A stretch of 43,974 nt of DNA from Candidatus Cottocaccamicrobium excrementipullorum. GTDB taxonomy: Bacteria; Bacillota; Clostridia; Lachnospirales; Lachnospiraceae. Location of the stretch: positions 1-43,974 of the forward strand of contig DVFL01000022.1 of assembly GCA_018713255.1 (NCBI GenBank), read 5' to 3'. Positions 71 through 14,641 of the stretch are shown here, one piece after another (the stretch's first letter is position 1; each line of letters begins with the position of its first letter). A model generated the notes under the pieces. It saw only the letters and a program-made list of their open reading frames with translations, was not told the DNA's origin and searched no databases. A program made the position numbers and the translations under genes.

Positions 71-75
71 ATATT

Positions 76-96: not shown

Positions 97-101
97 TAAA
101 A

Positions 102-725: not shown

Positions 726-781
726 TTTATTATTTACAATTTTCATTATGCGTGATATGAGCTTCGATTATCAACCTAAAG

Positions 782-826
782 CGTTGGATATTCTTGGGCG
801 ATGAAATCACACAAGAATATCCAACG
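782..826. repeat. Perfect 15-bp inverted repeat
   Basis: Arms CGTTGGATATTCTTG (782-796) and CAAGAATATCCAACG (812-826) match perfectly around a 15-nt spacer. It lies 57 bp downstream of the PPTase gene. A T-rich tail is missing on both strands, so it is not a canonical Rho-independent terminator; an mRNA-stabilising hairpin, protein-binding dyad or recombination remnant are alternatives. Confidence 0.8.
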
Positions 827-910
827 TTCCACAGTTCCCCATAGTTTAACTAGAGATAGCTGCCTTTATTATATGAGAAGCTCAGGACAAAATATTTGGC
901 CATGTGTTAA

Positions 911-940
911 AATTGCCTGATTTTGAGAAAATCGGCAATT
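911..940. repeat. 13-bp inverted repeat with one bulged base
   Basis: AATTGCC-T-GATTTT (911-924) and AAAATCGGCAATT (928-940) pair around a 3-nt loop with a single bulged T. It stands alone between convergent genes and has no T-tract on the plus strand. Confidence 0.7.
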
Positions 941-1059
941 CTGAAATTGACCGGAGCCTTTGGGATGATGGATAATGGGAGGATATTTTTCACATATCCT
1001 TTAGGTAGAGGGAGAGTTTCTTCTGGGATCCACTTTCCCTGAGTTTCGAAGATATCAAA

Positions 1060-1452
1060 TTATTTAAATGTGATTGTAAAAAAATCTTTTTGAATCTTTT
1101 TGCCATTGATCCAAAACTGTATTTTATACTTACCTTCTTTTAATTGAGAGAAGGTTTCTTGACGCACATAAAAATCTTGTGTAATTAAACTTAAAGCACT
1201 AATTTGTTTAATTGCTCTCCAGTTGAGAATGGTATTACCTTGAGCATCATATATACATCCTGCAATTTTGATGGTTTGAATTGTGGAGGTGTTATTGCGA
1301 ATGACCATTTCAACACCAAAATTGTGGTTCATAGCTTTATAGAAATGATTAGTGAAGACTTTTCCCCGTGCTCCAGTAGAATATAGACTTATTTTGCATA
1401 ACTCCAGAGACGGACGTTTAGGATGAGATGATGCATTCAAAGGTATTTGCAT
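1060..1452 (-). CDS. Hypothetical beta-sandwich protein, paralogue B
   Basis: Function not recognised. 130 residues from the chosen ATG at 1452: an AAAGGAG ribosome site lies 8 nt before it, whereas the upstream in-frame ATG at 1470 precedes that site. Most of the protein aligns with the C-terminal domain of the neighbouring gene, sharing LYSTG..GKV, FYK..NHNFG.E, QTI, CIYD..GN and a final GKYK.QFWIN...Q..FFT. The alternating strands and the closing turn (xGxY-x-hydrophobic-W-x-NG) suggest an Ig-like beta-sandwich as found at the C-terminus of many multidomain bacterial proteins; this is inference. No signal peptide or membrane segment. It lies 27 bp after the stop of paralogue A, in one operon, and lacks that protein's N-terminal extension. 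Confidence 0.7.
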   Translation of the reverse strand: MQIPLNASSHPKRPSLELCKISLYSTGARGKVFTNHFYKAMNHNFGVEMVIRNNTSTIQTIKIAGCIYDAQGNTILNWRAIKQISALSLITQDFYVRQETFSQLKEGKYKIQFWINGKKIQKDFFTITFK

Positions 1453-1479
1453 GAAACATTCTCCTTTCATATCAAATTG

Positions 1480-2037
1480 CTATTTATAGACAACTGTAAA
1501 AAAGGTCCTTTGAACTCTTGTATTGTTAATCCAAAATTGTGACTTGTATTTTCCGCTTTTCATTTTTGAGAAAGCATCTGCATCGACAAAAATATGTTGC
1601 ATCAAAGTGGAATTTGGATTAATGTGGGGTGTGAAATTTTTTTTGAACACAATATTGCCTTTTTCATCGTAAATGCAATGACCCAAATGAATAGTCTGGG
1701 CTTGGCTAGAAGTATTCTTTAAAATAACTTCAATACCAAAGTTATGGTTAATTGATTTGTAAAATTTATCTGTATATACCTTTCCTTTAGAACCCGTAGA
1801 GTAAAGGCGTATGCATTGCAAACTTACACAAACAGGAGATGTTACATTAGTCTTTGGGCCTCGAGGAGATTGTGAAGGTTTCTTGGCTTCTGCAAGCTTT
1901 CTACGATCATTGTGATTGTGGGTAGTATTTTTCTGATTGTTATTACCGCTAATATAATTTTTCACAACAACGGAGTTGCCATCCTTATCTTTTTTTGAAT
2001 CAACAAGAGTTGATAAGAAGTCCCAAAATCCAGCCAC
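1480..2037 (-). CDS. Hypothetical beta-sandwich protein with N-terminal helix and polar linker, paralogue A
   Basis: Function not recognised. The start is placed at GTG 2037 because AGGAAGGTGG lies 8 nt before it and a good promoter (2070-2098) predicts a transcript starting near 2063; the more upstream ATG (2058) would leave almost no leader. The 185-residue product has a hydrophobic or amphipathic N-terminal segment (AGFWDFLSTLV), then a polar Asn/His/Lys-rich linker (residues about 17-65), then the domain shared with the next gene (from about residue 75 to the end). No secretion signal. Composition is as AT-rich as other element genes. Duplication in tandem with one copy losing the N-terminus suggests a two-component function, for example a helix-bearing effector plus a domain-only partner, but this is speculation. 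Confidence 0.7.
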   Translation of the reverse strand: MAGFWDFLSTLVDSKKDKDGNSVVVKNYISGNNNQKNTTHNHNDRRKLAEAKKPSQSPRGPKTNVTSPVCVSLQCIRLYSTGSKGKVYTDKFYKSINHNFGIEVILKNTSSQAQTIHLGHCIYDEKGNIVFKKNFTPHINPNSTLMQHIFVDADAFSKMKSGKYKSQFWINNTRVQRTFFTVVYK

Positions 2038-2069
2038 AATATTCCCCACCTTCCTCATTTATTTATGTT

Positions 2070-2098
2070 ATTATATCATAGAGAAGTAGGGATGTCTA
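2070..2098 (-). promoter_or_regulatory. Sigma-A promoter for the beta-sandwich gene pair
   Basis: On the minus strand TAGACA (2098-2093) is followed after exactly 17 bp by TATAAT (2075-2070). The predicted transcript start lies about 26 nt before the GTG at 2037 and helps to choose that start over the ATG at 2058. Confidence 0.75.
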
Positions 2099-2291
2099 TT
2101 AGTTAGAACTTCGCTCAGAGTAAAAAATTTGACTTCTTGCTTTAGGTATGTAGAATTTTGCTTTTTTTCGACTTTTTTCTGTAGCGGTATAGATATTCCG
2201 CAGTAAATCCTGCAGACTACTCCAGAGCTTTATGATCCGTTATCTGGATGATTATACCGGATCACTTTGAGCCACGGAACCGGATTTTGAG

Positions 2292-2401
2292 GGTTCTTCC
2301 GCATATTTTAGTAAATCGCAAAAAATAATTTTGAAAATGCTGATATATACTGGATTTTTCAAGTTGGAATAAATTGAAATACTATCATTTGCGGAAGAAC
2401 C
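2292..2401. repeat. 110-bp unit bounded by 12-bp terminal inverted repeats (MITE-like)
   Basis: GGTTCTTCCGCA (2292-2303) and TGCGGAAGAACC (2390-2401) are perfect complements at the ends of a 110-bp AT-rich, non-coding segment. The arm resembles the GGNTCTTNC ends I associate with ISL3-type insertion sequences, so a non-autonomous derivative is possible. No clear target duplication is seen; TTGA occurs close to both ends but not in exact register. Confidence 0.45.
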
Positions 2402-2489
2402 TTGACTTCGTCGGACAGATGGTTCTGCCACGCCATTATAATCGGTCTGGGCTTTGAGACTTCTTTTACCCTGGCATTACATATATTGG

Positions 2490-2507
2490 GAATTACTTAA
2501 GTAATTC
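2490..2507. repeat. Perfect 18-bp palindrome
   Basis: GAATTACTTAAGTAATTC is a perfect palindrome without a loop, hence more like a binding site for a dimeric protein than an RNA hairpin. No gene starts within 300 bp on either strand, so its partner is unknown. Confidence 0.6.
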
Positions 2508-2664
2508 TAATAGATCTTTGATAGTAGCTAAGGAGGAGTATTCTTTTTCGTACTATTATCTTAATATTTGAGTGCTATCAAGAAGATTTATTTCTTCCTT
2601 CTCTAATTATAAAACATATGCTGCAGAATCTTCCTGCGGAAAAGTTCAAATTATAATTTCCATA

Positions 2665-2681
2665 GCGTTTGTAACAAACGC
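2665..2681. repeat. 17-bp palindrome, 8-bp arms
   Basis: GCGTTTGT and ACAAACGC flank one central base. It lies 214 bp upstream of the WYL regulator start. Possible operator; no further support. Confidence 0.5.
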
Positions 2682-2739
2682 GCAGCCCATATCTTGCAGA
2701 TAAGGATCTTCTAGGGGATTGGGGAAGTTCCTCAACGAG

Positions 2740-2780
2740 AAAAATACCAATACAGTGGTCTGAACTGCATTGGTATTTTT
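2740..2780. terminator. Bidirectional terminator-like hairpin
   Basis: AAAAATACCAATACAGT (2740-2756) and ACTGCATTGGTATTTTT (2764-2780) pair over 17 positions with one mismatch around a 7-nt loop. The A-run on the left and T-run on the right give it the form of a terminator on both strands. No obvious gene feeds into it, so it may insulate the WYL gene from upstream transcription. Confidence 0.6.
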
Positions 2781-2800
2781 GCATTTGTATATACAAATGC
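2781..2800. promoter_or_regulatory. Perfect 20-bp palindrome upstream of the WYL gene (candidate operator)
   Basis: GCATTTGTAT followed directly by ATACAAATGC is a loop-free palindrome of two 10-bp halves. It lies 41 bp upstream of a TATAAT (2842-2847) and 78 bp before the start codon of the WYL regulator. Autoregulation by that dimeric regulator is the simplest reading; this is inference. Confidence 0.5.
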
Positions 2801-2841
2801 CCTGCTCGCCAATTTGTGCTTTCATCTACCCCAATTTTTGC

Positions 2842-2847
2842 TATAAT
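2842..2847 (+). promoter_or_regulatory. -10 box of the WYL regulator gene
   Basis: A consensus TATAAT lies 31 bp before the ATG at 2879. No good -35 hexamer is present at 16-18 bp (best is a TTTCAT-like sequence), which would suit a promoter that depends on an activator. Confidence 0.5.
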
Positions 2848-2878
2848 AGGTTTAATAACTGTGCAAGAGGGTGAAATT

Positions 2879-3853
2879 ATGGAAGCTGACAACCAACTAA
2901 GGGTTTTATACCTTTACCAACTACTGCTTCGCCACACTGATGCAGAACATCCGATCTCCACAAAAGAACTGATTGACATGATGGAAAACTGCTATCAGAT
3001 TAAGCTGCATCGGACTACTATTCCCAAATACATAGATATTCTGAACGCTGCCGGTCTGGAAGTGATAGAGATTCGCTCTCGTGAAAAAAGATATTATCTT
3101 AATGATCGACTTTTTGAACTGCCAGAAGTCAAGTTATTAATCGATGCAGTGCAGTCTTCAAAATTTATTTCTGCAAATAAGAGTCAGGAATTGATTTCCA
3201 AGCTAATGACACTGACAAGCGAAGCTAATGCAGCAAAGCTTCAGCATAATCTATACATAACTGGTCGTGTGAAATCCGATAACGAAAAAGGTTACTATAT
3301 TGTTGAGGCGATCAATGGAGCAATTAATGAAGGAAAGAAAATTTCATTTCTCTATACTGACTATAATGCCAGAAAAGAAAAAGTGCTGAAAAACAATGGT
3401 CAGCCATACATCCTCAGCCCGTATGCTTTGATTTGGGACGGAGACTTCTACTATGTTATCGGATTAAATCATGCCCGCAACCAAGTTAATACCTTCCGAG
3501 TAGATCGAATCAGCAGACCACCGGATATTCTGAATGAAGCTGCCAGCCCAGTACCGGAAAGCTTGAATCTTGCAGATTATTCCCGCGAAATATTCCGAAT
3601 GTATGATACTGAAAAATCCGTTGAAGTTTCTCTTTTCTGCGAAAAGAGTCTGATGAAACACCTGATTGATCGTTTTGGTTGGGACGTAAAAACAGAAATC
3701 ATCGATCAGAATCATTTCCGGGCCAAGGTGCTGGTCTGTACCAGTCCCACTTTTTATCGATGGGTTTTTGGATGGACGGGTCGAATGAAAATTGAAGGCC
3801 CGTCATTCGTTCTGGAAGAATATCGCCGAATGGCAAGGGCTGCCATAGAGTGA
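2879..3853 (+). CDS. WYL-domain transcriptional regulator
   Basis: Cytoplasmic DNA-binding regulator whose WYL domain is thought to sense a ligand, often a nucleotide or nucleic acid. 324 residues from ATG 2879, preceded by GAGGGTG 7 nt upstream; a longer frame to 2816 overlaps the promoter and was rejected. N-terminal winged helix (about 1-75, with TTIPKYIDILNAAGLEV as the recognition region), then the WYL domain (about 140-215), where ISFLYTDY, ILSPYALIWDGDFYYVIG and FRVDRI match the family, and a C-terminal WCX-like extension ending in FVLEEYRRMARA. It stands alone between two terminators, next to several palindromes. Such regulators often sit beside phage-defence or mobile-element genes; the target here is unknown. 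Confidence 0.85.
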   Translation: MEADNQLRVLYLYQLLLRHTDAEHPISTKELIDMMENCYQIKLHRTTIPKYIDILNAAGLEVIEIRSREKRYYLNDRLFELPEVKLLIDAVQSSKFISANKSQELISKLMTLTSEANAAKLQHNLYITGRVKSDNEKGYYIVEAINGAINEGKKISFLYTDYNARKEKVLKNNGQPYILSPYALIWDGDFYYVIGLNHARNQVNTFRVDRISRPPDILNEAASPVPESLNLADYSREIFRMYDTEKSVEVSLFCEKSLMKHLIDRFGWDVKTEIIDQNHFRAKVLVCTSPTFYRWVFGWTGRMKIEGPSFVLEEYRRMARAAIE

Positions 3854-3942
3854 ATCGATTATCTAAATCTTGCGATAGGGAAAGTCATCTGTACGTGCCG
3901 TGAACGCCTTGCAAATTTAAAAAATCTTATCATTTCTCCTTG

Positions 3943-3975
3943 GAGATGTCGTCAAATGGTGACATCTCATTTTTT
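3943..3975 (+). terminator. Rho-independent terminator after the WYL gene
   Basis: GAGATGTC (3943-3950) and GACATCTC (3961-3968) form a perfect 8-bp stem with a 10-nt loop, followed by ATTTTTT. It separates the WYL gene from the LexA-like gene. Confidence 0.85.
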
Positions 3976-3990
3976 GAGCCAAAATATCCC

Positions 3991-4019
3991 TTGCAAAAAG
4001 AACTTATGTTCGATATAAT
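3991..4019 (+). promoter_or_regulatory. Sigma-A promoter of the LexA-like gene
   Basis: TTGCAA (3991-3996), a 17-bp spacer and TATAAT (4014-4019) form a near-consensus promoter. The spacer carries an SOS box, so binding there would block RNA polymerase directly. Confidence 0.85.
4000..4011. promoter_or_regulatory. SOS (LexA/DinR) box
   Basis: GAACTTATGTTC matches the Gram-positive LexA operator GAAC-N4-GTTC exactly and continues as CG-A on the right, as in the extended consensus. It lies between the -35 and -10 of the promoter of the LexA-like repressor gene. Host LexA and/or the encoded repressor could bind. Confidence 0.8.
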
Positions 4020-4066
4020 ATACTTATCTGAGACGAACTGTTTTATTTAGAATGTGAGGAATGACC

Positions 4067-4681
4067 ATGAGAAGCAAGAATCCGAAAGTGATGGTTGCCA
4101 TCTGTAATTTTGTTGATCGATATTACCGTGAAAAGCACGTATCCCCATCTGTTAATGAAATCGCCATGGGCATAGGTGTTTCTAAAGCGACTTCCTATCG
4201 CTACCTTGTCGCTATGAATGAATCCGGCATGCTGTCTTACGACGGCAAGAACATTGTTACAAAGCAGACCAGCAAATGTAATTCCGGATACTTCTCCGCA
4301 CCGCTGATCGGCAGTATCCGATGCGGTAATCCAGAACAGGAAGAAGAAAACGTAGAAGAATACGTAAGTCTTCCCAAATCCATTTTTGGCGAAGGCAGTT
4401 TCTATATTCTCCGCGCAAAAGGCGATTCCATGGTAGATGCGGGCATCCGGGATGAAGATCTGATCGTTATCAGAATACAGGAAACAGCGGCGGTCGGCGA
4501 TATTGTCGTTGCCCTGGATGAGAACAATGAGAATACCCTGAAAATCTATGGCGGAACTGATGCAGATACCAAGGAAGTTATCCTGCGTTATGCTAATAAC
4601 GAAAAATATCCCGATATGGAAATCAGGGTAAATCGTCTCGTTGTACAGGGCGTGGCCAAACATGTCATTAAGGCTCTGTGA
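4067..4681 (+). CDS. LexA/UmuD-like self-cleaving repressor (peptidase S24)
   Basis: A repressor expected to cleave itself upon RecA activation, linking the element to DNA damage. 204 residues from ATG 4067, placed 7 nt after GTGAGGA; the ATG at 4061 is too close to that site. The N-terminal winged helix spans about 1-65 (SPSVNEIAMGIGVSKATSYRYL). The S24 peptidase domain follows with a Cys86-Gly87 cleavage site, Ser121 (in GDSM) and Lys158, the expected Ser-Lys pair. LexA proteins usually have Ala-Gly; Cys-Gly is the form known from UmuD. A perfect SOS box lies in its promoter, so autoregulation or control by host LexA is likely. Two zinc-ribbon genes follow closely in the same direction. It may be an element-borne regulator rather than the host LexA. 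Confidence 0.88.
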   Translation: MRSKNPKVMVAICNFVDRYYREKHVSPSVNEIAMGIGVSKATSYRYLVAMNESGMLSYDGKNIVTKQTSKCNSGYFSAPLIGSIRCGNPEQEEENVEEYVSLPKSIFGEGSFYILRAKGDSMVDAGIRDEDLIVIRIQETAAVGDIVVALDENNENTLKIYGGTDADTKEVILRYANNEKYPDMEIRVNRLVVQGVAKHVIKAL

Positions 4682-4724
4682 TAATGGCCTTTTAGAAAAA
4701 TGCAGGAAAGGATGTGTTCTGACA

Positions 4725-4916
4725 ATGAAAACTTACGATGTGCAATGCCCGATCTGTGGGGCACTGAATCAAAATCTTTACCTGGAAGAAACTGGCGGAT
4801 GGATGGAATGTGAAAAATGCGGACGGATCATTTATACTGCTTTTTCAGTAGATTTACCCCAGACCTCTGTCTTGCACGCGAGGTGTACTAGCGAATACCT
4901 TGCAGCTTTTCATTGA
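4725..4916 (+). CDS. Zinc-ribbon miniprotein (63 aa)
   Basis: Unknown function. The chosen ATG (4725) gives 63 residues that begin just before CPICG (8-12), pair with CEKCG (29-33), and so form one treble-clef or zinc-ribbon knuckle. AGGAAAGGA lies about 12 nt upstream. It starts 43 bp after the LexA-like gene, probably in its operon. A distant third Cys (54) is not part of an obvious second site. Similar tiny zinc ribbons are common in integrative elements of gut Firmicutes. DNA binding or partner recruitment is possible but unproven. Confidence 0.65.
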   Translation: MKTYDVQCPICGALNQNLYLEETGGWMECEKCGRIIYTAFSVDLPQTSVLHARCTSEYLAAFH

Positions 4917-4942
4917 TTTTGTCACGGATGGAGGGATGGAAG

Positions 4943-5164
4943 ATGAATGTTATAAATGAAACATGGCGGCCATTCTCATGGCATTGTCCCAACTGCGGCA
5001 AGGCGTCTGTTGGTTATCAAGACGCAGCCGGTACGATCAAAGTCGAGTGCGCGAAATGCCATGCGGTAATGATCAGACGAGTTATGGGGCGCCGTCATGA
5101 CCGAATTGATATTTACGCTCCTGCAGGAGAAGTAAATGAAACCGGTTGGAGCGTTGGTCTTTAG
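4943..5164 (+). CDS. Zinc-ribbon miniprotein (73 aa)
   Basis: Unknown function. ATG 4943 follows GGAGGG by 7 nt. CPNCG (15-19) and CAKC (36-39) form a single zinc knuckle, then a basic stretch (MIRRVMGRRHDR) that could contact nucleic acid. It resembles the preceding gene in layout, though the sequences differ outside the cysteines, and lies 26 bp downstream of it in what looks like the LexA-like operon. Confidence rests on the ribosome site and cysteine pattern rather than on homology. Confidence 0.65.
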   Translation: MNVINETWRPFSWHCPNCGKASVGYQDAAGTIKVECAKCHAVMIRRVMGRRHDRIDIYAPAGEVNETGWSVGL

Positions 5165-5281
5165 TAAAAATTGAATATCTAGATATAACGACGGAAAGGT
5201 TGAGATGAAACAGGCTGCGTAAATCCTTTTCCAGGTCCATATCTTAAATCACCAGAGGTTTAACCAGATATTACATGAGAG

Positions 5282-5336
5282 GCCGCTGGCAGAGATGGAA
5301 TCCGATTCAGGATTCCATCTCTGCTGGCGGCTTTTT
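5282..5336 (+). terminator. Very strong terminator hairpin in the XRE gene leader
   Basis: A 22-bp stem (5282-5303 with 5310-5331; 20 Watson-Crick pairs and two adjacent G-U pairs) closes a 6-nt loop and is followed by TTTTT. It should end the transcript of the LexA-like operon. The XRE start codon is only 14 bp after the T-run, which leaves no room for a promoter between them. Confidence 0.9.
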
Positions 5337-5349
5337 GTATTGGAGAACG

Positions 5350-5643
5350 ATGTATTATGATCCGATAGAATGTGGAATGCGTATTTCCCGGCTGCGTATG
5401 GAACTGGGACTTACCCAGGCACAAGCGGCGGAAAAATTAAACATCAGCGTCCAGCATTATCGCTCTGTAGAGGTTGGCCGCCGTGGAGCCTCAATTGATC
5501 TGCTGGTAGATATTTCAATACTCTACCATACATCTTTAGATTACCTGATACTGGGAAAGCATTCAGAAATGCGTCTTGGCAGAATCAAGAAAGAACTTCG
5601 AAGCATTATTGAGGGACTGGAAACCCTGGAAAATGCTCTCTGA
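5350..5643 (+). CDS. XRE-family helix-turn-helix regulator
   Basis: Small DNA-binding protein of the Cro/CI type. ATG 5350, with GGAG 6 nt upstream, gives 97 residues; the frame extends upstream only through the terminator hairpin and that part is not real coding sequence. The HTH covers about residues 9-65 (RISRLRMELGLTQAQAAEKLNISVQHYRSVE..., with LDYLILG at the end), followed by a short helix. No promoter fits between the preceding terminator and the start, so expression must come from read-through. It sits between the LexA-like operon and the mazF-like operon and may control either. Confidence 0.85.
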   Translation: MYYDPIECGMRISRLRMELGLTQAQAAEKLNISVQHYRSVEVGRRGASIDLLVDISILYHTSLDYLILGKHSEMRLGRIKKELRSIIEGLETLENAL

Positions 5644-6131
5644 AGCAAGGCCGGCAAACCGTGTCTACGAGACATAGCAAAGCGCGTCTACGAGGGACTC
5701 TGGCAATTCGTAAAATTCCACTACAATTTAATCACAGCCAACAAACACCGGCTGCAAATTTTGAAAACTGAATACTCATTCATCAGGTACATTACCGTAT
5801 GTCAGAGCCGGACAGGCAGTACGCCATGACCCGCTTATGCAGGTGAGCGAACACTACTAGCCTAAAAATACCGGATTGCAACCGGCAAGGCCATGACGGC
5901 ATACAGGGATAATGATACTTCTGTAATTCGCAGCCCGGCCATAAAGAAGGCGGGGAGGTTCGATGCCTATGGAGCAGCCCAGCAAGCCGCCGCCTGATGA
6001 TTTCCCTTCTCAGGGCGTCGAGGACAAATATGAGAAATAATTGTTTAAAAATCATCAGGAGTCAGAGCAGCGGAGAACAGCTCTCCCTCTCTGGCTTCTT
6101 TAACATATTGCCAAAGAAAGGAGCACATAAA
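5644..6131. other. 490-bp block with at most a 25-residue ORF
   Basis: No normal gene is visible between the XRE gene and mazF. The block is more GC-rich than its surroundings and has short dyads, a repeated GTCTACGAG near 5660-5695, and one small ORF with a good ribosome site (5963-6040). The rest could be an untranslated RNA, an origin of transfer or a long leader; nothing decisive was seen. Confidence 0.45.
5963..6040 (+). CDS. Possible 25-residue peptide upstream of mazF
   Basis: ATG 5963 is preceded by GGGGAGG with 4 nt spacing and the frame runs 25 codons to TAA (6040). The peptide is proline-rich and acidic (MPMEQPSKPPPDDFPSQ, then GVEDKYEK), with no known motif. It lies 91 bp before the toxin gene, where an antitoxin would normally be encoded, but it is far shorter than a MazE. 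A leader peptide, a remnant, or chance are all possible. Confidence 0.3.
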   Translation: MPMEQPSKPPPDDFPSQGVEDKYEK

Positions 6132-6509
6132 ATGGATCGAGACTTTAAGCAATATCATCGCGGAGATATTTACTTCGCTAACTTAAACCCTTCTTACGGT
6201 TGTGAACATGGAGGCATTCGTCCTGTGTTAATTCTGCAGAATGACATAGGTAACTTCTATTCACCTACATTAATCGTTACACCGGCTACAAAGCAAACAG
6301 ATAAAAAGCCTTCGCTTCCAACTCACGTTGTTCTAAACAAGATCCCCGGCATGAAATATGATGGTGATTCTCTATTTATGTTGGAGCAGATGCGGGTAAT
6401 TGATAAGCATCGCCTGCGTGGTTATGCCGGTCGGCTCACCAGAGCACAAATGGAGCAGATCGATAAAGCAGTATTTGCCAGCCTGGGGCTTACCAGGGGT
6501 AACGCATGA
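6132..6509 (+). CDS. MazF/PemK-family toxin (endoribonuclease)
   Basis: Type II toxin fold that cleaves RNA at short sequences. 125 residues from ATG 6132, behind GAAAGGAG. Family signatures: RGDIYFANLNPSYGCEHGGIRP at the N-terminus (normally RGDIY.A.L.P..GSEQGG.RP), IVTPATKQ, LPTHVVL and LFMLEQMRVIDKHRL. The usual catalytic Arg and the TPxT region are kept, so it is probably active; GSEQGG is GCEHGG here. No MazE-like antitoxin is recognisable; upstream lies only a 25-residue ORF, and downstream a zinc-binding miniprotein overlaps its stop by 4 bp (ATGA). That neighbour is the best candidate partner. On mobile elements such toxins stabilise the element; that role is inferred. Confidence 0.87.
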   Translation: MDRDFKQYHRGDIYFANLNPSYGCEHGGIRPVLILQNDIGNFYSPTLIVTPATKQTDKKPSLPTHVVLNKIPGMKYDGDSLFMLEQMRVIDKHRLRGYAGRLTRAQMEQIDKAVFASLGLTRGNA

Positions 6510-6706
6510 GGTGGAGCGCCCGGCAAAGGCCGGACAGGGTTTCCCTGCTTTGTCTCTGCCCTGCCTGCCGGGAGAACTTTGAACGTACAGGGAGTTATCA
6601 CATCAGACGAGCCGATCAGCGACAGTCGGTGAAAGAAGCCTGCACCTATTGCCAGATCCGGATGGGCTATGACTACTATGTAATGCCGGCATCAGAACGG
6701 GGGTGA
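6506..6706 (+). CDS. Cysteine-rich zinc-binding miniprotein coupled to mazF
   Basis: 66 residues starting inside the mazF stop (ATGA overlap), so translation is coupled. Two cysteine pairs, CPAC (18-21) and CTYC (46-49), are spaced for one zinc site, with a basic stretch between them. No known antitoxin family is recognised. Because it is co-translated with an apparently orphan toxin it could be the antitoxin or an accessory factor; alternatively it is one more of the zinc miniproteins of this element. Confidence 0.7.
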   Translation: MRWSARQRPDRVSLLCLCPACRENFERTGSYHIRRADQRQSVKEACTYCQIRMGYDYYVMPASERG

Positions 6707-6712
6707 CGGAAT

Positions 6713-7723
6713 ATGAAGGAATCCTTGCAGATTGATCCGGAATTCCAGTCCAAAATCCCACCACTAACTGAGGAAGAATATCATCTGCTTGAGGAAAATA
6801 TTCTCCATGACGGAGTGGTATTGAATCCGTTAATCGTCTGGAACGGCTACATTATAGATGGCCATAACCGGTTTCGAATTATTCAGGATCATCCAGAAAT
6901 CAAGTACACAATATTTGAAAAAGAATTTACTGACCGATATGCTGCCATCGCCTGGATATGCTGCAATCAACTGGGGCGTCGAAATCTGACACCACAGCAA
7001 AAGAAATATTTGATTGGACAACGGTATGAGGCGGAGAAACTGACCACAAACTTTAATGGAAATCGGTTTACTTTAGTAGATGAAAGTAGGTGTTCCCAAA
7101 ATGGGAACACCTACAAAGCAGAGAGAACTTGCGAACGGATCGCTCGTGAAAATAATATCAGCAAAAATACTGTGCTTCGTGCAGAAAGCTTTGCAAAAGG
7201 GGTGGATGCCGCCGATGAAGTAGAACCTGGCATTAAAAAAGAGATTCTTTCAGGTATACTCAGGCCGAAAGATATTACCGTAGCCGCTATTGCCAAGGCA
7301 TCGCCAAAGGAACGGCCTGCATTAGTGGAGCAGCTGCGTCAGTCAAAGCCCATGCGAAACAAAGAACCGAAATCAACGGAAGAACAATCATCAGTTAAGA
7401 CTGAACTTGAAGTAACGGAAGAGTCAGAAGTTCAAGCTGAGCCAGTATCTAAACTCCCGGATTTTCAAACTCGTCCTATGACGGAAATTCAAAAAATCCT
7501 TGCGATTTCCTCCGGAATGGAGTCTGCGGAGGAATTAGCCGACGAAAGTACCATGTTCTATGAACTGGAAGATGCGATTACTACCATGATACGCCGCTGT
7601 CGGCGCTGCTTTGAAAGCTATCCGGGATTGTTAAATAAAAAGTCGTACCGACGCAGGGTACTGAAGATTTTTAAAGAAGCCACTCAATTTATACAGAAAA
7701 TTGAACAGGAGGAACCAACATGA
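6713..7723 (+). CDS. ParB/Spo0J-like protein with HTH
   Basis: ParB-N domain protein (336 aa) of the kind found on plasmids and integrative elements. Residues 1-95 hold the ParB-N fold, with DGHNR (49-53) in the position of the nucleotide-binding GxxRR box. A linker (about 100-140) and an HTH-like region follow (ERIARENNISKNTVLRAESFAKG), then a charged variable segment (220-265) and a C-terminal helical part. It starts 6 bp after the zinc miniprotein and overlaps the next gene by 4 bp. A palindrome with 12-bp arms lies inside the gene at 7086-7114. Likely roles: DNA binding, maintenance or regulation of the element; no ParA ATPase is visible. Confidence 0.8.
   Translation: MKESLQIDPEFQSKIPPLTEEEYHLLEENILHDGVVLNPLIVWNGYIIDGHNRFRIIQDHPEIKYTIFEKEFTDRYAAIAWICCNQLGRRNLTPQQKKYLIGQRYEAEKLTTNFNGNRFTLVDESRCSQNGNTYKAERTCERIARENNISKNTVLRAESFAKGVDAADEVEPGIKKEILSGILRPKDITVAAIAKASPKERPALVEQLRQSKPMRNKEPKSTEEQSSVKTELEVTEESEVQAEPVSKLPDFQTRPMTEIQKILAISSGMESAEELADESTMFYELEDAITTMIRRCRRCFESYPGLLNKKSYRRRVLKIFKEATQFIQKIEQEEPT
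7086..7114. repeat. Perfect inverted repeat (12-bp arms) inside the ParB-like gene
   Basis: GTAGGTGTTCCC (7086-7097) and GGGAACACCTAC (7103-7114) flank AAAAT. It encodes a Ser/Cys/Asn-rich stretch in the linker before the HTH of the ParB-like protein. It could be a binding site of that protein or an mRNA hairpin. Confidence 0.85.
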
Positions 7724-8505
7724 AGAACTTAATAACCTGCCCTTTTGATGAAATGATGATTTACAGCAAGAATCTGGAAGTTCCTCGCAACGCTTATCAG
7801 CGGGAATTGAATCCCAACCGTGTCCGTAAAATTGCCGCTGAGTTTGACGAGCATATTGCCAATGACCCTAAAGTCAGCTTCCGTGATGGTCACTACTATG
7901 TCTTTGACGGTCAGCATACTATTGCAGCTCGGAAGCTGCGTAATGGTGGTAAAGATTTGCCGATTCGCTGTAAAGTCTTTTATGGCCTCTCTGAGCTGGA
8001 TGAGGCTATTTTGTTTGCTCAGCAGACCGGCGCTTCTGCCCAGCTTACTGCTGGTGCAAAGCTTCGGGCACTGGTTTACGGTGATGATCCCGACGCGGTG
8101 GCATTTCTAAAAGCCACAGAAGATGTAGGCTTACGACTGGACTACAACCAGGACAGAGGTAAATACCGGATCGGTTGTGTAGGTACGGCCTACTCTATTT
8201 ATAAAAAGGTAGGTGAGAAAATCTATAAGGAAGGAATGCAGCATATTGTTAACGCCTGGGATGGTACTCCTGATTCCCTTCGCTATGAAATTTTGCAGGG
8301 AGTGGTCTTCTTTGTGGATCTCTATCACGATGAATATAACTCTAAGCGTCTGGTGGAGCAGCTGCGCCGGTATGACCCATTAACCATCTACCGGGAAGGA
8401 CGCTCTCTCGGTATAAACATGGCCGGTTACAAAAAGTATATGTACCAGGTCTACCGAATGTACAATGGAAGCAGCCGACGCTATCAGCTGCCCTTGAAAT
8501 TTTGA
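7720..8505 (+). CDS. ParB-N-like protein (DUF6551-type)
   Basis: 261 residues, start ATG 7720 overlapping the previous stop (ATGA), ribosome site AGGAGG 6 nt upstream. The N-terminal part (about 20-110) resembles a ParB nuclease-like fold: VPRNAYQRELN, then VFDGQHTIAARK with DGQHT (63-67) in the ligand loop, and RCKVFYGLSELDEAILFA. The remaining helical region (YNSKRLVEQLRRYDPL, GYKKYMYQVYRMYNG) fits proteins of this type that pair with a ParB-like partner in gut Firmicutes elements. Molecular role not established; probably works with the ParB-like protein encoded directly upstream. The DUF number is from memory. Confidence 0.7.
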   Translation: MKNLITCPFDEMMIYSKNLEVPRNAYQRELNPNRVRKIAAEFDEHIANDPKVSFRDGHYYVFDGQHTIAARKLRNGGKDLPIRCKVFYGLSELDEAILFAQQTGASAQLTAGAKLRALVYGDDPDAVAFLKATEDVGLRLDYNQDRGKYRIGCVGTAYSIYKKVGEKIYKEGMQHIVNAWDGTPDSLRYEILQGVVFFVDLYHDEYNSKRLVEQLRRYDPLTIYREGRSLGINMAGYKKYMYQVYRMYNGSSRRYQLPLKF

Positions 8506-8641
8506 TGCTTGTATTTTGCAAGGTTAAAAATGCAAACTGTGTTGCTGAATGTCTGTTATTGTTTCGCTGGAATTTTTTCCGTTAATTAGCATAATCAATC
8601 CAGTTTCTGGAAAGAATAAAAAATGCGAGGTGATACAGGAT

Positions 8642-8860
8642 ATGCAAAATTGTAAACAAGAACCTTTAGTGGATATTCGAGATGTTCTGGCGGCTGTTGA
8701 AGCAGAGCATTGCAAATCACCAGAAGATAAGATTGTTTCATTCATGCAGAAGATCAAGAATCCATACGAATATAAAGTAGGATCAGTCACTGTCAAGACT
8801 TCTTTTGCAGGAAATATTACAATGGACGATTGCTTTGCCAATTTCTTGGCAACCATGTAA
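8642..8860 (+). CDS. Small DUF6870-like protein upstream of recombinases
   Basis: 72 residues from ATG 8642 (GAGGTGA upstream; the longer frame from 8549 is less likely). It contains LVDIRDV, then ERI/DKIVSFMQKIKNPYEYKVGSVTVKTSF, a pattern I know from a small protein family regularly encoded just before serine recombinases in clostridial integrative elements. No catalytic motif. It lies 127 bp before the first recombinase. A role as a recombination directionality or accessory factor is conceivable but unproven; the family number is from memory. Confidence 0.65.
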   Translation: MQNCKQEPLVDIRDVLAAVEAEHCKSPEDKIVSFMQKIKNPYEYKVGSVTVKTSFAGNITMDDCFANFLATM

Positions 8861-8889
8861 TATTTAGAAATTAGCGGAAGACACTGGCG

Positions 8890-8936
8890 TTTTGCTGGAT
8901 TTTGTGATAATATATGAGTGGACAAAATCAGCAAAA
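8890..8936. promoter_or_regulatory. Long inverted repeat upstream of the first recombinase
   Basis: TTTTGCTGGATTTTGT (8890-8905) and ACAAAATCAGCAAAA (8922-8936) are complementary over 15 bp apart from one bulged G, around a 16-bp AT-rich spacer that contains GATAATATATG. It lies 51 bp before the recombinase start. Without a T-tract it is not a terminator; an operator over the promoter, a recombinase binding site or an RNA switch are candidates. Confidence 0.7.
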
Positions 8937-8987
8937 CTCCGGTTCTTCTTGGCTTTACAGCCGAGCATAGAAGAGGAGTGGCAAATT

Positions 8988-10652
8988 ATGAATAAAAACA
9001 GAATGTATCGAGCCGCTATCTATGTTAGGTTATCTAAGGAAGATGGCGACTCTTTTTCTTTTGGTAAAAATGAAAGCGATAGTATTCGAAATCAAAAATT
9101 ACTGATTAAAAATCACCTTTCTAACCTGCCGGATATTAAAATAGCTGAGACATATGAAGATGATGGATATACAGGTACAAATTTTGAACGACCTGGATTC
9201 CAGAAACTGATTCAAGCGGTTAAGGAGAAAAGAATAGATTGTGTTGCGGTAAAAGACTTTTCCCGATTAGGCAGAGATTACCTAGAGGCAGGAAAATATA
9301 TCGAAAAGATTTTTCCGGCATTGGGGGTTCGTTTCATTTCAATTAATGACGACTATGATAGTCTTAGACCCAAAGGACAAGCCGATAGTCTGGTGATCCC
9401 TTTTAAAAATCTTTTGAATGAGCAGTATAGCAGAGATACTTCCGGAAAGATTCGTTCAGCCTTGTCTGTAAAAAGGCAACAGGGTTTGTTCGTGGCGAGT
9501 TTCTCTGCGTTTGGATACAAGCGTGATCCTCAAAACAAAAATCATCTTGTAATTGATGAATATGCGGCAGGCATTGTACGGGATATTTTTAAACTGAAAT
9601 TGGAAGGATTAAGCTATTTGGCAATTGCAAAATGGCTGACCGAGAGAAAGATACCTACCCCGGCAGACTACAAGAGAGAATGTGGTTCGAAATATCATAG
9701 TGGATTTAAGGTCGATGTATATTCCAAATGGTCCGCGGTTGCTGTGAAGCGTATTCTAACAAATGAGGTTTATTGCGGTCATATGGTTCAAGGTAAACGT
9801 CGGAAAATAAGCTATAAAGTACAAGCACAGGAATATCTGGATCAGGATCAATGGGAGCGGATTGAAAATACCCATGAGGCGATTATATCTCCGGTTACTT
9901 TTCATGAAGTGCAGAGACTACTGAATGAAGATACACGGATTGGCGCAGAAGATACGATCTATCCTCTTGCCGGAAAAGTTTATTGTGCTGATTGTGGGGC
10001 GGCGATGGTGCGGAAAACGGTCCCGTCCAATGGAAGAAAATATATATATTATGTTTGTGGCAACAATAAACAGAATAGTAAGTGGTGTTCCTCCCATTCA
10101 ATTCGTGCTGAAAAACTTGAAGATGCAGTTTTAGCTTCCCTTCAGGCGCAACTTACAATTGTGCTAAATATGGATAAGGCGATGGAGGAAATTGAGCGCC
10201 TTACTTGGGAGCAGCGGGAAACGAAAAAACTAAATAGTCAATTAGAAGCTTTGGAAATTACAATTCAGCAAAATCAAAGGCTTCGTTTGTCTGTGTATGA
10301 AGATCTGAAAATTGGGCTTATTGATAAGGCAGAGTATGAGTATTTGCGGCAAGGATTTACTGAACGAATAAAAGATGCGAAAATGGCTCAGCAAAAATTA
10401 AGAGGGGAGAAAAATGCACTTCTTGCGGGCTTGAATGATCAGCAGAAATTTCTTGCCAGTTTTCGTAGATATGCTAATATTCAGATTTTAGAGAGAAATT
10501 TAGTGAATGTTTTGATAGAACGGATTAAAGTTTATAGCAACCATCATATTGAAGTGGAATTTCGCTATAAAGATCGATTTGAATCTGTATCTGAATTTTT
10601 AGATATGCACGGAAAGGATCAAGTTACTGTTTTTGAAAGGGAGCGGGTGTGA
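8988..10652 (+). CDS. Large serine recombinase 1
   Basis: Site-specific DNA recombinase acting by a Ser-linked 2-bp staggered cut. 554 residues from ATG 8988 (GAGGAG 10 nt upstream; the frame upstream of it crosses an inverted repeat). Resolvase domain about 1-155 with nucleophile Ser16 in YVRLSKED and VKDFSRLGRDYLEAG (about 85-99). Recombinase domain follows (FGYKRDPQNKNHLVIDEYAAGIVRDIF...), then the zinc ribbon CADCG...YVCG...WC, and a coiled-coil C-terminal region. First of three co-directional recombinases; 3 bp separate it from the second. With them it probably performs integration at spoVT and excision; which of the three is essential cannot be read from sequence. Confidence 0.92.
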   Translation: MNKNRMYRAAIYVRLSKEDGDSFSFGKNESDSIRNQKLLIKNHLSNLPDIKIAETYEDDGYTGTNFERPGFQKLIQAVKEKRIDCVAVKDFSRLGRDYLEAGKYIEKIFPALGVRFISINDDYDSLRPKGQADSLVIPFKNLLNEQYSRDTSGKIRSALSVKRQQGLFVASFSAFGYKRDPQNKNHLVIDEYAAGIVRDIFKLKLEGLSYLAIAKWLTERKIPTPADYKRECGSKYHSGFKVDVYSKWSAVAVKRILTNEVYCGHMVQGKRRKISYKVQAQEYLDQDQWERIENTHEAIISPVTFHEVQRLLNEDTRIGAEDTIYPLAGKVYCADCGAAMVRKTVPSNGRKYIYYVCGNNKQNSKWCSSHSIRAEKLEDAVLASLQAQLTIVLNMDKAMEEIERLTWEQRETKKLNSQLEALEITIQQNQRLRLSVYEDLKIGLIDKAEYEYLRQGFTERIKDAKMAQQKLRGEKNALLAGLNDQQKFLASFRRYANIQILERNLVNVLIERIKVYSNHHIEVEFRYKDRFESVSEFLDMHGKDQVTVFERERV

Positions 10653-10655
10653 TTC

Positions 10656-12368
10656 ATGGCAAGAGTAAGCAGAAAAAATAATGATTATGTAAAAGCTGTC
10701 GCTACAAGGGATGATCAGGAACTTCGGATATTTAAGACTGCACTGTATGCCAGATTATCTGTGGAAGATAATGGAAAAAACGGTGATTCCCTGGAAGCAC
10801 AGATTCGATATCTTCATGCTTATATTGAAGGTAAACCGCAGTTCGATTTGAAAGGTGAATACAGTGATAACGGATTTACTGGAACTAATTACAATAGGCC
10901 AGGTTTTCAGAAAATGATCGAACAGGTGCAGGCTGGAAACATAGATTGTATTATTGTAAAAGATTTATCTCGTCTTGGACGTGATTATATTGATACTGGA
11001 AATTTTATTGAGAAGATTTGTCCAATGTTTGGTCTCCGATTAATTGCGATTAACGATAATTATGATACTGCGATTAAAAATTCTTCCATAGAAATGACTA
11101 TGTCGGTAACGAACATTGCTAATGACATGTATGCGAAGGATATTTCACGTAAAATATGTTCAGCATTACAAGAAAAACTGGAAAAAGGGGATTATATAGG
11201 AAACTATGCACCATATGGTTATCTGAAGGATCCCGAAAATAAAAATCATTTAATACCTGATCCGGATTTAGTTCAAATAGTTAATCGTATATTTGAAATG
11301 AGGGCAGCAGGAATGGGAATCAGCAAGATTGCCGCAACATTAAATAATGAAGGCATTCCCTCGCCGGGACGTTATCGTTTTGAGAAAGGTATTATAACCA
11401 ATAATAATAAAAAGGGTGCTGGGCTTTTGTGGAATCGTCATGTATTGACAGACTTACTGAAAAATGTTGTTTATATTGGGAACCTTGCTCAGGCAAGAAG
11501 CCGTTCGGCTCTTTATAACGGAATTCCATTTCATTTAACAGCGGAAGATGAGTGGGTAATTGTAGAAAATACACATGAAGGAATTGTTCCTAAAACGTTG
11601 TTTGAGCAAGCGCAAAAGGTCAATAACCGTAGGAGAATTGCGCAGAAGGAAAATTCTGGAAAATACAATCATCTTCCAAAGACGGTTAATCTTTATAAGA
11701 AGCGTCTGGTTTGCGCAGATTGTGGCGCTGTGATTAAATTATGCAGAACAATTAGTAGGAAAAAAAATAAAGCGTATTTTACATTTAAATGTCCTACGTT
11801 CATAGAACATAGAGAGAAGGGGTGTACAAATAAATCTATTTCTCAGGCAGAAGTAGATAAAGCAGTCCTGACAACAATACAGGCACATATTAAGCTTTTT
11901 TCGAGGAATAAGAAAGTGATTGAAAGATTGCAACTGAAAGAAAGCCATGATGGAAAAAGAAATCAACTGGAGAAAGAGATTCGGGATATAGAGAGGCGGA
12001 TACAACAAAAAGAATTATTTCGAGGAGGACTCTATATGGATCTGAAAGATGGTCTCTTGAGTGAAGAGGAATATCTTTTATCAAAAGCCTCCTATACAAA
12101 TGAAATCGAGGAACTTAATGTGAAATTATCACAGTTGAAAGATAATGAGAAACGGAAAACTATTTCGTTGGAACAATATTCTCATTGGATGTATCTGATC
12201 GAAAAATATAGCAATCTTCAGGAATTGAATCAAGAAGTAATAGAAGCATTTGTAAAGGTTATCTATCTGAAAGATCATAAACAGCTTGAAATCACTTTAA
12301 ATTATGTAGATGAATTCAAAGCAGCCATGGAACTTTATGAAAAGCACCGCGACGAGGAGGCTGTTTAA
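10656..12368 (+). CDS. Large serine recombinase 2
   Basis: 570 residues. A 28-residue N-terminal extension precedes the resolvase domain, in which the nucleophile is Ser35 (YARLSVEDN), with VKDLSRLGRDYIDTG further on. The recombinase domain (APYGYLKDPENKNHLIPD...) and zinc ribbon (CADCG...CPTF...GC) are complete, and a coiled coil closes the protein. Related to but clearly diverged from recombinases 1 and 3, so the triplet is not a recent duplication. Starts 3 bp after recombinase 1; its TAA overlaps the ATG of recombinase 3 (TAATG), so the three are translated together. Confidence 0.92.
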   Translation: MARVSRKNNDYVKAVATRDDQELRIFKTALYARLSVEDNGKNGDSLEAQIRYLHAYIEGKPQFDLKGEYSDNGFTGTNYNRPGFQKMIEQVQAGNIDCIIVKDLSRLGRDYIDTGNFIEKICPMFGLRLIAINDNYDTAIKNSSIEMTMSVTNIANDMYAKDISRKICSALQEKLEKGDYIGNYAPYGYLKDPENKNHLIPDPDLVQIVNRIFEMRAAGMGISKIAATLNNEGIPSPGRYRFEKGIITNNNKKGAGLLWNRHVLTDLLKNVVYIGNLAQARSRSALYNGIPFHLTAEDEWVIVENTHEGIVPKTLFEQAQKVNNRRRIAQKENSGKYNHLPKTVNLYKKRLVCADCGAVIKLCRTISRKKNKAYFTFKCPTFIEHREKGCTNKSISQAEVDKAVLTTIQAHIKLFSRNKKVIERLQLKESHDGKRNQLEKEIRDIERRIQQKELFRGGLYMDLKDGLLSEEEYLLSKASYTNEIEELNVKLSQLKDNEKRKTISLEQYSHWMYLIEKYSNLQELNQEVIEAFVKVIYLKDHKQLEITLNYVDEFKAAMELYEKHRDEEAV

Positions 12369-13957
12369 TGGAACAGTGTATCGGAATTTATTTGAGAGTT
12401 TCCTTGGAGGATTTTGATTTGAAACGGAATCTTCATAAGGATGAAAGCAATAGCATTTTCGGGCAGAGAAATTTAATTAATCGATATATTCAGGACGATA
12501 AAACATTGAATATCTTGCCAGTCAAAGAATTTGTAGATGATGGTTTTACAGGTACTAATTTTGAACGCCCATCATTTCAGAAAATGTTAGAAGAAATTAA
12601 GAACGGCAAAATATCATGTGTGATTGTGAAAGATTTGTCTCGGTTCGGGCGAAATTATCTGGAGGTAGGGGATTACCTGGAACATTTATTCCCTTTTTTA
12701 GGGGTGCGATTTGTTGCTGTTAATGATCATTATGACAGTGAGGACTATTCAGGAGAAAATGCCGGAGTCGATGTTGCATTCAAAAATATTCTTCATGACT
12801 ATTACAGTAGGGATTTGTCTATGAAGGTTCGATCGGCACAGCGAAGCAGGATGCTGCAAGGTAAATATGTAAATACACCACCATATGGCTATAAACGTGA
12901 TCCAGAGCACAAACACCATCTTGTACCAGATGAAAATACTGCATGGGTGGTTAAAAAAATTTTCCAAATGATTATTGAAGGATCATCTACGTCGGAAGTT
13001 GCCCTATATCTGAATAAAAATCATATTTCTACACCAATGCAGGCAAAGGCGATTAGGCGGAAAAAAGGGATGCTTTGCGAAAAGCCGTTGGTATGGACAC
13101 ATCACACAGTATTGAATATACTTGGAAATTATAAGTATGTAGGAGCGATGGTCAATCATACGAGAGAAAGTCAGACATTGCGGGATAAAGTTCAAAAGCG
13201 AATGCCTGAAGATGTATGGATCGTCAATGAGGGAATGCATGATGCCCTTGTTTCACATGAGGAATTTCGACAGGCTCGACAAGCGCTGCGAAAAGTAAAA
13301 AAATACAGTAAGAAAGAGGCAGACCTTACAAATTGTGTATATTATTGTGGACACTGTGGAAGAAAATTGAGGAAAACTTATGGGCTAACAACATATCTGA
13401 CTTGCAGAACCTTTAAATACGTACCGGATGCAGAGTGTCAGACAATACGCTGGGCACTCCCTGATATAGAAAAAATTGTTTTAGAATCCTTCAAGGTACA
13501 GTTGCTTTTCCTTCGATCACTGAAAAAGAATATGAAGAAAGTGGAAAATAATAGAGGGAAAGAGTATATTGGAGAGATGAAAAGAATTAAAAATCAATTG
13601 GAACGATATCAGGACAAAAAGGTCAAGCTGTACACAGAATATCGTCAAGGATTTCTTTCTAGAGATGGATTTATGCTGAAAAAGCTGCAGCTTTCGCAGG
13701 AAGAAGAAACGCTGAAACAAGAAATGATTCAGATTAGAAATATTTATGAGAAGTATATAGAAGAAAAGGTTGTGGAGGATGAGCAGAGAGTTGTTGTCGA
13801 TCAATACTCTGGATATATGGGGATGCCAGACGAAGAACTAATAGCTTTAATGTATCAGGGCATAGAGCGGGTGATGGTTTATAATGATAAGCGTATTGAA
13901 ATTATATGGAAATTTCAGGATATATTTAAAGACTATGAGAGGAAAGCAGCGATGTGA
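12368..13957 (+). CDS. Large serine recombinase 3
   Basis: 529 residues, ATG 12368 behind GAGGAGG. Nucleophile Ser12 in YLRVSLEDF, VKDLSRFGRNYLEVGDYLE in the resolvase core, a recombinase domain (PPYGYKRDPEHKHHLVPDENT), a zinc ribbon (YCGHCG...TCRTF...C) and a coiled-coil tail. All signatures of an active enzyme are present. It is the last gene before the right element boundary; a terminator follows about 95 bp downstream and then the truncated spoVT. Confidence 0.92.
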   Translation: MEQCIGIYLRVSLEDFDLKRNLHKDESNSIFGQRNLINRYIQDDKTLNILPVKEFVDDGFTGTNFERPSFQKMLEEIKNGKISCVIVKDLSRFGRNYLEVGDYLEHLFPFLGVRFVAVNDHYDSEDYSGENAGVDVAFKNILHDYYSRDLSMKVRSAQRSRMLQGKYVNTPPYGYKRDPEHKHHLVPDENTAWVVKKIFQMIIEGSSTSEVALYLNKNHISTPMQAKAIRRKKGMLCEKPLVWTHHTVLNILGNYKYVGAMVNHTRESQTLRDKVQKRMPEDVWIVNEGMHDALVSHEEFRQARQALRKVKKYSKKEADLTNCVYYCGHCGRKLRKTYGLTTYLTCRTFKYVPDAECQTIRWALPDIEKIVLESFKVQLLFLRSLKKNMKKVENNRGKEYIGEMKRIKNQLERYQDKKVKLYTEYRQGFLSRDGFMLKKLQLSQEEETLKQEMIQIRNIYEKYIEEKVVEDEQRVVVDQYSGYMGMPDEELIALMYQGIERVMVYNDKRIEIIWKFQDIFKDYERKAAM

Positions 13958-14052
13958 TGAAATAATACATTTAGGAAGGTAGTCATATTTGCGCCAGATA
14001 ATATCAGTGAGTTGATTTACATAAGTGATAAAATCGTGAGCAGAAGATAAAG

Positions 14053-14098
14053 AAAAATAAATCCGCTGATCATGTTTTGACTTAGCGGATTTATTTTT
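14053..14098 (+). terminator. Terminator at the right end of the element
   Basis: AAAAATAAATCCGCT (14053-14067) and AGCGGATTTATTTTT (14084-14098) form a perfect 15-bp stem with a 16-nt loop and a long T-run. It ends the recombinase operon a few bases before the spoVT remainder and so also prevents element transcription from entering it. Confidence 0.88.
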
Positions 14099-14110
14099 TT
14101 TAGCGTATAC

Positions 14111-14641
14111 TTGACACCAGCAGATGACCTAGGACGAATTGTGGTTCCCAAGGAGATCCGCAGGACCCTCAGGCTGCGGGAGGGAACGCCCCTGGAGATA
14201 TTTACGGACCGGGAAGGAGAAATTATCCTGAAAAAATATTCCCCTATGGTAGAGCTGACTGCCTTCGCCGGTCAATATGCGGATGCCATGGCCCAGTCCA
14301 CAGGTTTAATGGTCTGCATTACGGATCGTGACCAGGTGATCGCGGTGGCGGGCGGACCGAAAAAGGAGCTGATGCAGAAGAATATCAGCCGGCAGCTGGA
14401 ACAGTTGATTAATGAGCGGCAGACAGTCTGCGCGGGAAAGGATGACAAGGCCTTTATTCCGTTGATTGACGAGGAACTAGAAGGCGTAACGGCTCAGGTG
14501 GTGACGGCAATTCTCTGTGAAGGCGACGCCATCGGGGCAGTAGCGGTGTTAAGCCGCGAACCTAGAGTTCGGTTCGGAGATGCAGAGATTAAACTGGTTT
14601 CCACTGCGGCGGGATTTTTAGGAAGACAGATGGAGAGCTGA
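14111..14641 (+). pseudogene. spoVT: spoVT, 5' end removed by the element
   Basis: SpoVT is an AbrB-type transcription factor with a GAF domain that acts in spore development, in the forespore in species studied. From DDLGRIVVPKEIRRTLRLREG onward the SwapPed-hairpin DNA-binding domain and the GAF domain (about 60-175) are intact and highly conserved. Known SpoVT proteins begin with about ten residues ending in RRI before DDLGR; here these are absent and the codons before GAT (14123) come from the element. The only start (TTG 14111) has no ribosome site and lies directly behind a terminator, so expression is unlikely unless the element leaves. The GC-rich codon usage equals the chromosomal side. 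The true join lies between about 14,100 and 14,125. Confidence 0.88.

Follow-up and report, generated by a model that had tools for sequence, protein, structure and literature searches.

The sporulation gene spoVT is split in the 43,974-nucleotide stretch of DNA analysed here (the window), which is the entire contig C2 of a 42-contig genome and whose left edge is the contig end. We propose, with a probability of roughly 80%, that an element of the triplet-serine-integrase class lies in codon 11 of spoVT and divides the gene, and that its excision would rejoin spoVT and at the same time assemble a promoter on the excised circle. The split gene, both of its junctions with the element, the conservation of the site and a −35/−10 pair in the joined element ends were observed directly.

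The body of spoVT runs on the forward strand from codon 11 to the stop (14,123–14,641) as 172 intact codons without a start or ribosome-binding site of its own. The open frame that contains it (14,111–14,641) begins with a TTG at 14,111, for which no ribosome-binding site is evident, and matches the spore_V_T model only from model position 9 or 10, at ~232 bits and so just below the cut-off of 235.9. The frame lacks MKATGIVRRI, which is present in six same-genus copies (G001, G003, G006, G007, G009 and G010) where MKATGIVRRIDDLGR reads uninterrupted across the site; MKATGIVRRIDDLGR is also identical in the solved SpoVT 2w1t. The original prediction had described SpoVT as intact from DDLGR onwards, with its first ten codons replaced by the end of a serine-recombinase element and its terminator and with a TTG lacking a ribosome site as the remaining start. 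The frame to 14,641, the uninterrupted copies in relatives and a hairpin at the element end all agree with that description, and the fragment ending in the first SpoVT codons that it led one to expect was found on contig C38 of the same genome, joined to the left end of the element. A search of this genome with a first-codon pattern gave a single match, at C38:81047.

On C38 the spoVT head, including its ribosome site, reads ATGAAAGCTACAGGAATAGTTAGACGAATCGATGAAGGTGTTATAATATCGCTAAGG, and the window-side junction reads TTAGCGTATACTTGACACCAGCAGATGACCTAGGACGAATTG. GATGA is common to the C38 head and the window tail, a direct repeat within the 2–8 bp range of triplet ICEs. The crossover is probably the dinucleotide GA at 14,123–14,124 (forward strand, attR) in codon 11, which forms the centre of the imperfect inverted arms TTAGCG...CGCTAA. 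An intact second spoVT, which would have spoken against the original prediction, was not found in this 96% complete genome; the sole other match scored 33 bits in a 114-aa frame. Relative to G001, the window tail carries 7 nonsynonymous and 81 synonymous changes, compared with 1 and 66 between G001 and G002, and we take these counts as deciding for neither selection nor decay. That an integrated element splits spoVT in this genome is confirmed.

The right-hand part of the element occupies positions 1–14,124 of the window (forward strand); at least 8.1 kb of the remainder is on C38, and the rest probably lies elsewhere as well. Three large serine recombinase genes are adjacent and in one orientation (forward) at the element end beside spoVT: an internal one (recombinase 1, 8,988–10,652; Pfam Resolvase, Recombinase and Zn_ribbon_recom), a middle one (recombinase 2, 10,656–12,368) and an external one adjoining the target gene (recombinase 3, 12,368–13,957). 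Immediately upstream of them on the same strand is a gene for a small DUF6870 protein (8,549–8,860, Pfam), possibly a directionality factor, and a Vescimonas element has a DUF6870 gene at the same place. Also on the forward strand of the element are a DUF6551 gene (7,720–8,505) and an S24 (LexA/CI-like) repressor-type gene (4,061–4,681; Pfam Peptidase_S24). A −10-like GATAAT picked out by eye (8,906–8,911) and the motif GGACAAAATCAGC (8,920–8,932) together span 8,906–8,932 of the forward strand, and the reverse complement of the motif occurs in the left-end leader. The right end is closed by a terminator-like hairpin with a T-run (14,053–14,100, forward strand; −21.7 kcal/mol, z −8.5, equalled by 0 of 200 shuffles), which sits between the recombinases and spoVT, is absent from the list of a simple terminator scan, and would block element transcription from entering spoVT. 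The right attP arm and core (14,100–14,127, forward strand) include the −35 hexamer TTGACA at 14,111–14,116; this 28-bp sequence occurs once in the window at up to 3 mismatches, with 0 occurrences expected by chance. A 4′-phosphopantetheinyl transferase gene near the contig start (102–725) is possibly element cargo, and a pemK leader RNA (Rfam RF02913, 69 bits; 5,909–5,972) lies directly 5′ of a PemK/MazF-type toxin gene (5,997–6,509) on the element.

The left end, on C38, encodes ParA, ParB, a DUF5688 protein, an HTH protein, an IstB/DnaC-type ATPase and a second ParB-like protein. The left leader of the window's element contains a terminator-like hairpin (z −5.0, compared with only −1.3 for G008), which makes it less likely that the ParA genes are transcribed from the spoVT promoter. 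At the end of C38 (G000, L022:18779-19200), an element ORF stops early and a serine-recombinase-like frame, MNDYNKITALYSRLSVGDEDRD, starts immediately after it, suggesting a second mobile element nested in the first, which is perhaps why the contig ends there. No Pfam match was found in the fragment L022:18779-19087, and no conjugation genes were seen in the recovered parts of the split element. A whole element, 54,362 bp long on a single contig, lies between two spoVT halves in Oscillibacter valericigenes An860, and nine of its proteins that were scanned included ParA, ParB, a SpaA-type adhesin, TrbL, a TraG-type ATPase, RepA_N and a sliding-clamp homologue, with no relaxase among the nine. 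We assign the window's element, of which the copy is incomplete, to the triplet-serine-integrase type and presumably to the conjugative kind, the ICE class being read from the integrase layout. The original prediction was right about a serine-recombinase element in spoVT; it had missed both the triplet integrase class and the predicted circle promoter formed by the ends. It had also held that excision would cure the spore of the element, and this is doubtful because the element carries partition genes (ParA and ParB at the left end, with a RepA_N initiator in the complete relative); the excised circle might replicate and be kept.

We then compared the site across genomes. Among 11 genomes of the genus searched (the window's own included), 10 gave a spoVT match and G005 gave none. 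Besides the six uninterrupted copies, spoVT is joined to an element end in G000, the window's genome, and in G008, and a contig end falls exactly at the site in G002 and G004. G008, whose contig is that of locus L034, has the same arrangement with spoVT and element sequences that differ from those of the window. Its similar ORFs at L024:11763-12656 and 13434-14432, one before attR inside the element and one just after the spoVT tail, flank the target gene. When the recombinase 3 alignment was scanned against one genome per species and the best 80 of 440 relatives were retained, four of these 80 were joined to spoVT at the same codon (L034, L035, L036 and L038). A viral-contig scan added three further junctions (L286–L288), and five more genomes have the same-codon junction (L318–L322); TTGACA formed part of the search pattern for both groups. 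A spoVT junction was present in 6 of 293 genomes in a class-wide sample at least 90% complete (own included), from six families, and a reversed control pattern gave 0 matches; the family-wide count of 2 of 397 is an undercount because GCAGAY was fixed in the pattern. The same-codon junctions total 13, of which 12 have clear SpoVT sequence past DDLGRVV; the contig of the other, L287, ends 11 bases past DDLGRVV in bases unlike SpoVT. No spoVT head was found for G561 in 45 kb upstream. The proposal that spoVT codons serve as attB is borne out by the head and tail on the two element ends, by the six uninterrupted copies and by use of the same codon in other families.

In a tree of recombinase 3 that comprised the window and 33 of the 80 loci (34 were chosen, but L081 contains an internal stop and was left out), one set with 100/99 support united the five spoVT-targeting recombinases with L043 and L037. 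L037 ends 311 bases past the recombinase, with no target visible. L043, the closest relative of the window in this tree (63%), is inserted in another gene at the spoVT-like sequence GAACTGCTGGGACG (ELLGR; L043:12986 on), likely a secondary site, and its genome keeps an intact spoVT. At the right ends of L067, L086, L102, L072, L103, L080 and L098, recombinase relatives lie in tyrosine-integrase genes (conserved GxRxG-E motif) and others in hsdM-like or serine recombinase genes.

On the host side, GTATA or GCATA followed after 17 bases by RATACTA starts 66–123 bp upstream of spoVT in 12 of the 13 hosts, a count made without a chance control; in G003 the contig starts too close to the gene. We take this motif to be sigma-G-like, on its resemblance to the sigma-G consensus. 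In 12 of 13 genomes a sigG match exceeded 400 bits, and one such match passed the curated cut-off; in 10 of 14 control genomes the model also detects, with lower scores, other sigma factors. The host MAG G406 has only fragments. The sigma-G-like motif is in keeping with the forespore setting of SpoVT assumed in the original prediction, as is the dependence of C. difficile spoVT on sigma-F and sigma-G in the available part of that study (PMC3789822). In the mechanism that we favour, the element attP would have recombined with attB at spoVT codon 11, and integration would separate the sigma-G-like promoter, the start and the first ten codons from the spoVT body, leaving no working SpoVT. Loss of SpoVT function in the integrated state, as originally proposed, is strongly predicted because the start codon, the ribosome-binding site and the first ten residues are separated from the rest, and carriers are predicted to form no mature spores unless the element leaves. 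Precise excision by the recombinases of the element would rejoin spoVT in frame, as in the split sporulation genes of skin-type elements, and sporulation would be expected to recover.

The same arrangement could be a plain knockout, in which the element targets a highly conserved site and sporulation is lost until a rare stochastic excision, a reading to which we give slightly less than even odds. The conservation of MKATGIVRRIDDLGR as far as 2w1t means that the site suits a wide host range, L043 inserted at ELLGR in another gene despite the intact spoVT in its genome, and triplet ICEs are known to disrupt genes, as described in the accessible part of PMC4701971. In addition, two of the 12 clear spoVT tails are broken (L286 diverges after REGDP and L320 has an apparent frameshift after KEIRR), so that some insertions look permanent. 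However, the tail remains full length in 10 of the 12 (the window, L034, L035, L036, L038, L288, L318, L319, L321 and L322), and the contig breaks of G004, at the crossover, and of G002, on the tail side, suggest that empty sites coexist with occupied ones. In G004 the head contig ends in ..AATCGA and the tail contig starts with GACGATCTGG (GACG..), a two-base overlap at the crossover that is expected of an assembly graph if empty and occupied sites coexist. The tail contig of G002 starts at the same base, and no spoVT head was found in that genome. A near copy of recombinase 3 was found in neither assembly (at E 1e-60, G002 gave no match and G004 one, at 36% identity; across nine genus genomes there were matches in five, all 30–41% identical), so these breaks may have another cause, and the evidence for coexisting occupied and empty sites in the two genomes is suggestive, not proof.

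We considered developmentally timed excision somewhat unlikely. As with skin, recombinase action in the forespore would excise the element and restore spoVT, and the spores would mature. This would fit the need for SpoVT in C. difficile, where a spoVT mutant forms no heat-resistant spores and SpoVT is needed for mature ones (PMC3789822, in part), the sigG scores above 400 bits and the 10 full-length tails; if each insertion put an end to sporulation, a junction in 6 of 293 genomes would also be less easily maintained. On the other side, no sigma-G, -E or -K motif turned up just upstream of the recombinases in a simple scan (a weak test, which found no sigma-A hexamer pair there either), two tails are broken, and recombinase relatives are also inserted in genes unrelated to sporulation.

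The second consequence of the proposed excision concerns the circle. At the right end TTGACA precedes the crossover by 6 bases, at the left end TATAAT follows it by 9, and the circle would bring the right-end −35 to 17 bp from the left-end −10. All five spoVT elements with both ends recovered (G000, G008, G406, G407 and G408), which were found without using the hexamers, gave such a pair when their ends were rejoined: TTGACA-17-TATAAT in four and TTGACA-17-TATATT in one. The Vescimonas element, which lies in a serine recombinase gene, gave TTGACA-17-GATAAT. One attP type present in three tyrosine-integrase genes gave TTGACA-17-TATAAT, and the joined flanks gave continuous frames; these cases are not unbiased tests, since the search pattern contained TATAAT (9 matches, compared with 3 for a reversed control; of six genomes, three were confirmed through the continuity of the target gene and three were not). 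Overall, in seven attP types, which are not seven independent events because the elements are homologous, exactly 17 bp separate TTGACA from a −10 that matches the consensus in five or more bases, and the spacer sequence varies. In the integrated state, the best −35 before that −10 matches only 2–3 of 6 bases in nine of nine junctions, which stand for the seven attP types, and a promoter scan listed none at the attL of the window's element. TTGACA was also present at the right ends of relatives in other target genes, the 16 translated right ends having been picked for it. For the elements in G415, G416, G418 and G419 no left end was identified, and ParA was unsuccessful as a guide to left ends; these four elements neither support nor oppose a joint promoter. 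Viral-contig matches to the bare pattern TACTTGACA-N6-GA-N9-TATAAT, among those listed, were set aside collectively as probably ordinary promoters.

Judged by its hexamers, the circle joint should be a vegetative-type promoter assembled from opposite ends, with functional spacing only when the ends are joined, as in elements whose promoter forms on the circle. Its activity would be directed into the ParA/ParB and replication-type genes only in the circle form. The pair might instead be a by-product of recombinase binding, in which recognition bases happen to resemble a promoter, and the hexamers do fall within the imperfect inverted attP arms. We think this rather improbable, given that the 17-bp spacing of TTGACA and the −10 is exact in all seven attP types while the spacer is variable, and that the Tn4451 and Tn4453 circles have been reported to form a promoter.

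The leader downstream of the joint showed a further regularity. Four of five spoVT elements have the motif GCTGATTTTGTCC ~55 bases beyond the crossover (exact in G000, O. valericigenes and G406, with one mismatch in G008, and absent in G408), and its exact reverse complement lies shortly upstream of recombinase 1 in all three elements with that region recovered (G000, G008 and O. valericigenes); shuffled sequence gave 0.5 matches per 14 kb at up to 2 mismatches. With transcript starts taken as assumed, the left leader and the stretch preceding recombinase 1 are complementary over 14 bases in G000, 11 in G008 and 17 in O. valericigenes, compared with a largest match of 9–10 bases in 60 mononucleotide shuffles each, so that G008 is barely above the shuffles. 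The Vescimonas element has a different 15-base complementary match that includes a T-run, and in the two tyrosine-target elements tested the antisense match was 8 bases, within the shuffle range. We offer as speculation, and as quite improbable, that the joint promoter makes a leader RNA antisense to the 5′ end of the recombinase mRNA, which silences (or releases) the recombinases in trans and locks the circle out of spoVT while the forespore matures, with ParA/ParB and the replication genes keeping the circle in the spore. If so, the element would link its life cycle with the formation of spores and not merely break spoVT. The three spoVT leader matches would be explained equally well by a shared protein operator.

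That SpoVT stays active through a new start supplied by the element is highly improbable: a TTG is possible in the window frame and an in-frame ATG in G008 gives MQKFLSEYLTQADDLGR, but a ribosome-binding site is not evident, the terminator-like hairpin precedes the frame in the window, the N-terminal AbrB-type domain loses the conserved GIVRRI, and in L035, L286 and L288 a stop codon lies in frame immediately before DDLGR.

Spores are the spreading route of many gut anaerobes, and with a spoVT junction in 6 of 293 class genomes, a removable element may be what keeps some apparently non-sporing species from sporulating. The spoVT elements also offer a test of whether excision suits host development or the element's own transfer, because a single recombination would show both the restored spoVT and the assembled promoter.

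We found no paper on spoVT as an integration site in the literature searched (spoVT insertions, intervening elements and conjugative elements), a coverage that leaves out most subscription papers. Lyras and Rood reportedly described in 2000 that the joined ends of the Tn4451/Tn4453 circular intermediate form a promoter, and Tn916 is said to be prior art on circle-form transcription (Celli and Trieu-Cuot, 1998). The spoVT element resembles Tn4451/Tn4453, as far as accounts of these are available, in being a serine recombinase element with a promoter formed by its joined ends; that promoter serves the recombinase TnpX, whereas the one predicted here points towards genes of partition and replication type, and the recombinases lie at the opposite end of the element. 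ICEclc and ICEKp1 have circle-specific promoters in which an end promoter acts across the joint only in the circle, according to the portion of PMC13023037 available, and state-dependent transcription across the joint is the shared feature. In these two ICEs a promoter at one end drives the integrase gene, whereas the hexamers of the spoVT element come from opposite ends (PMC13023037). The streptococcal triplet ICEs, which disrupt mutT, traG and hsdM and have 2–8 bp repeats, share with it three tandem serine recombinases in the same orientation beside the target, an intragenic insertion and a very short core (PMC4701971). They differ in target and in host, here spoVT and Clostridia, and a circle promoter is not described in the accessible part of that paper (PMC4701971). 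Finally, the intervening elements of sporulation genes, namely skin in sigK, SPbeta in spsM, vfbin in spoVFB, gin in gerE and yin in yabG, are likewise mobile DNA that splits a sporulation gene which precise joining would restore (PMC10747680, as far as available). Unlike those, the spoVT element interrupts a forespore regulator and is of the ICE type.
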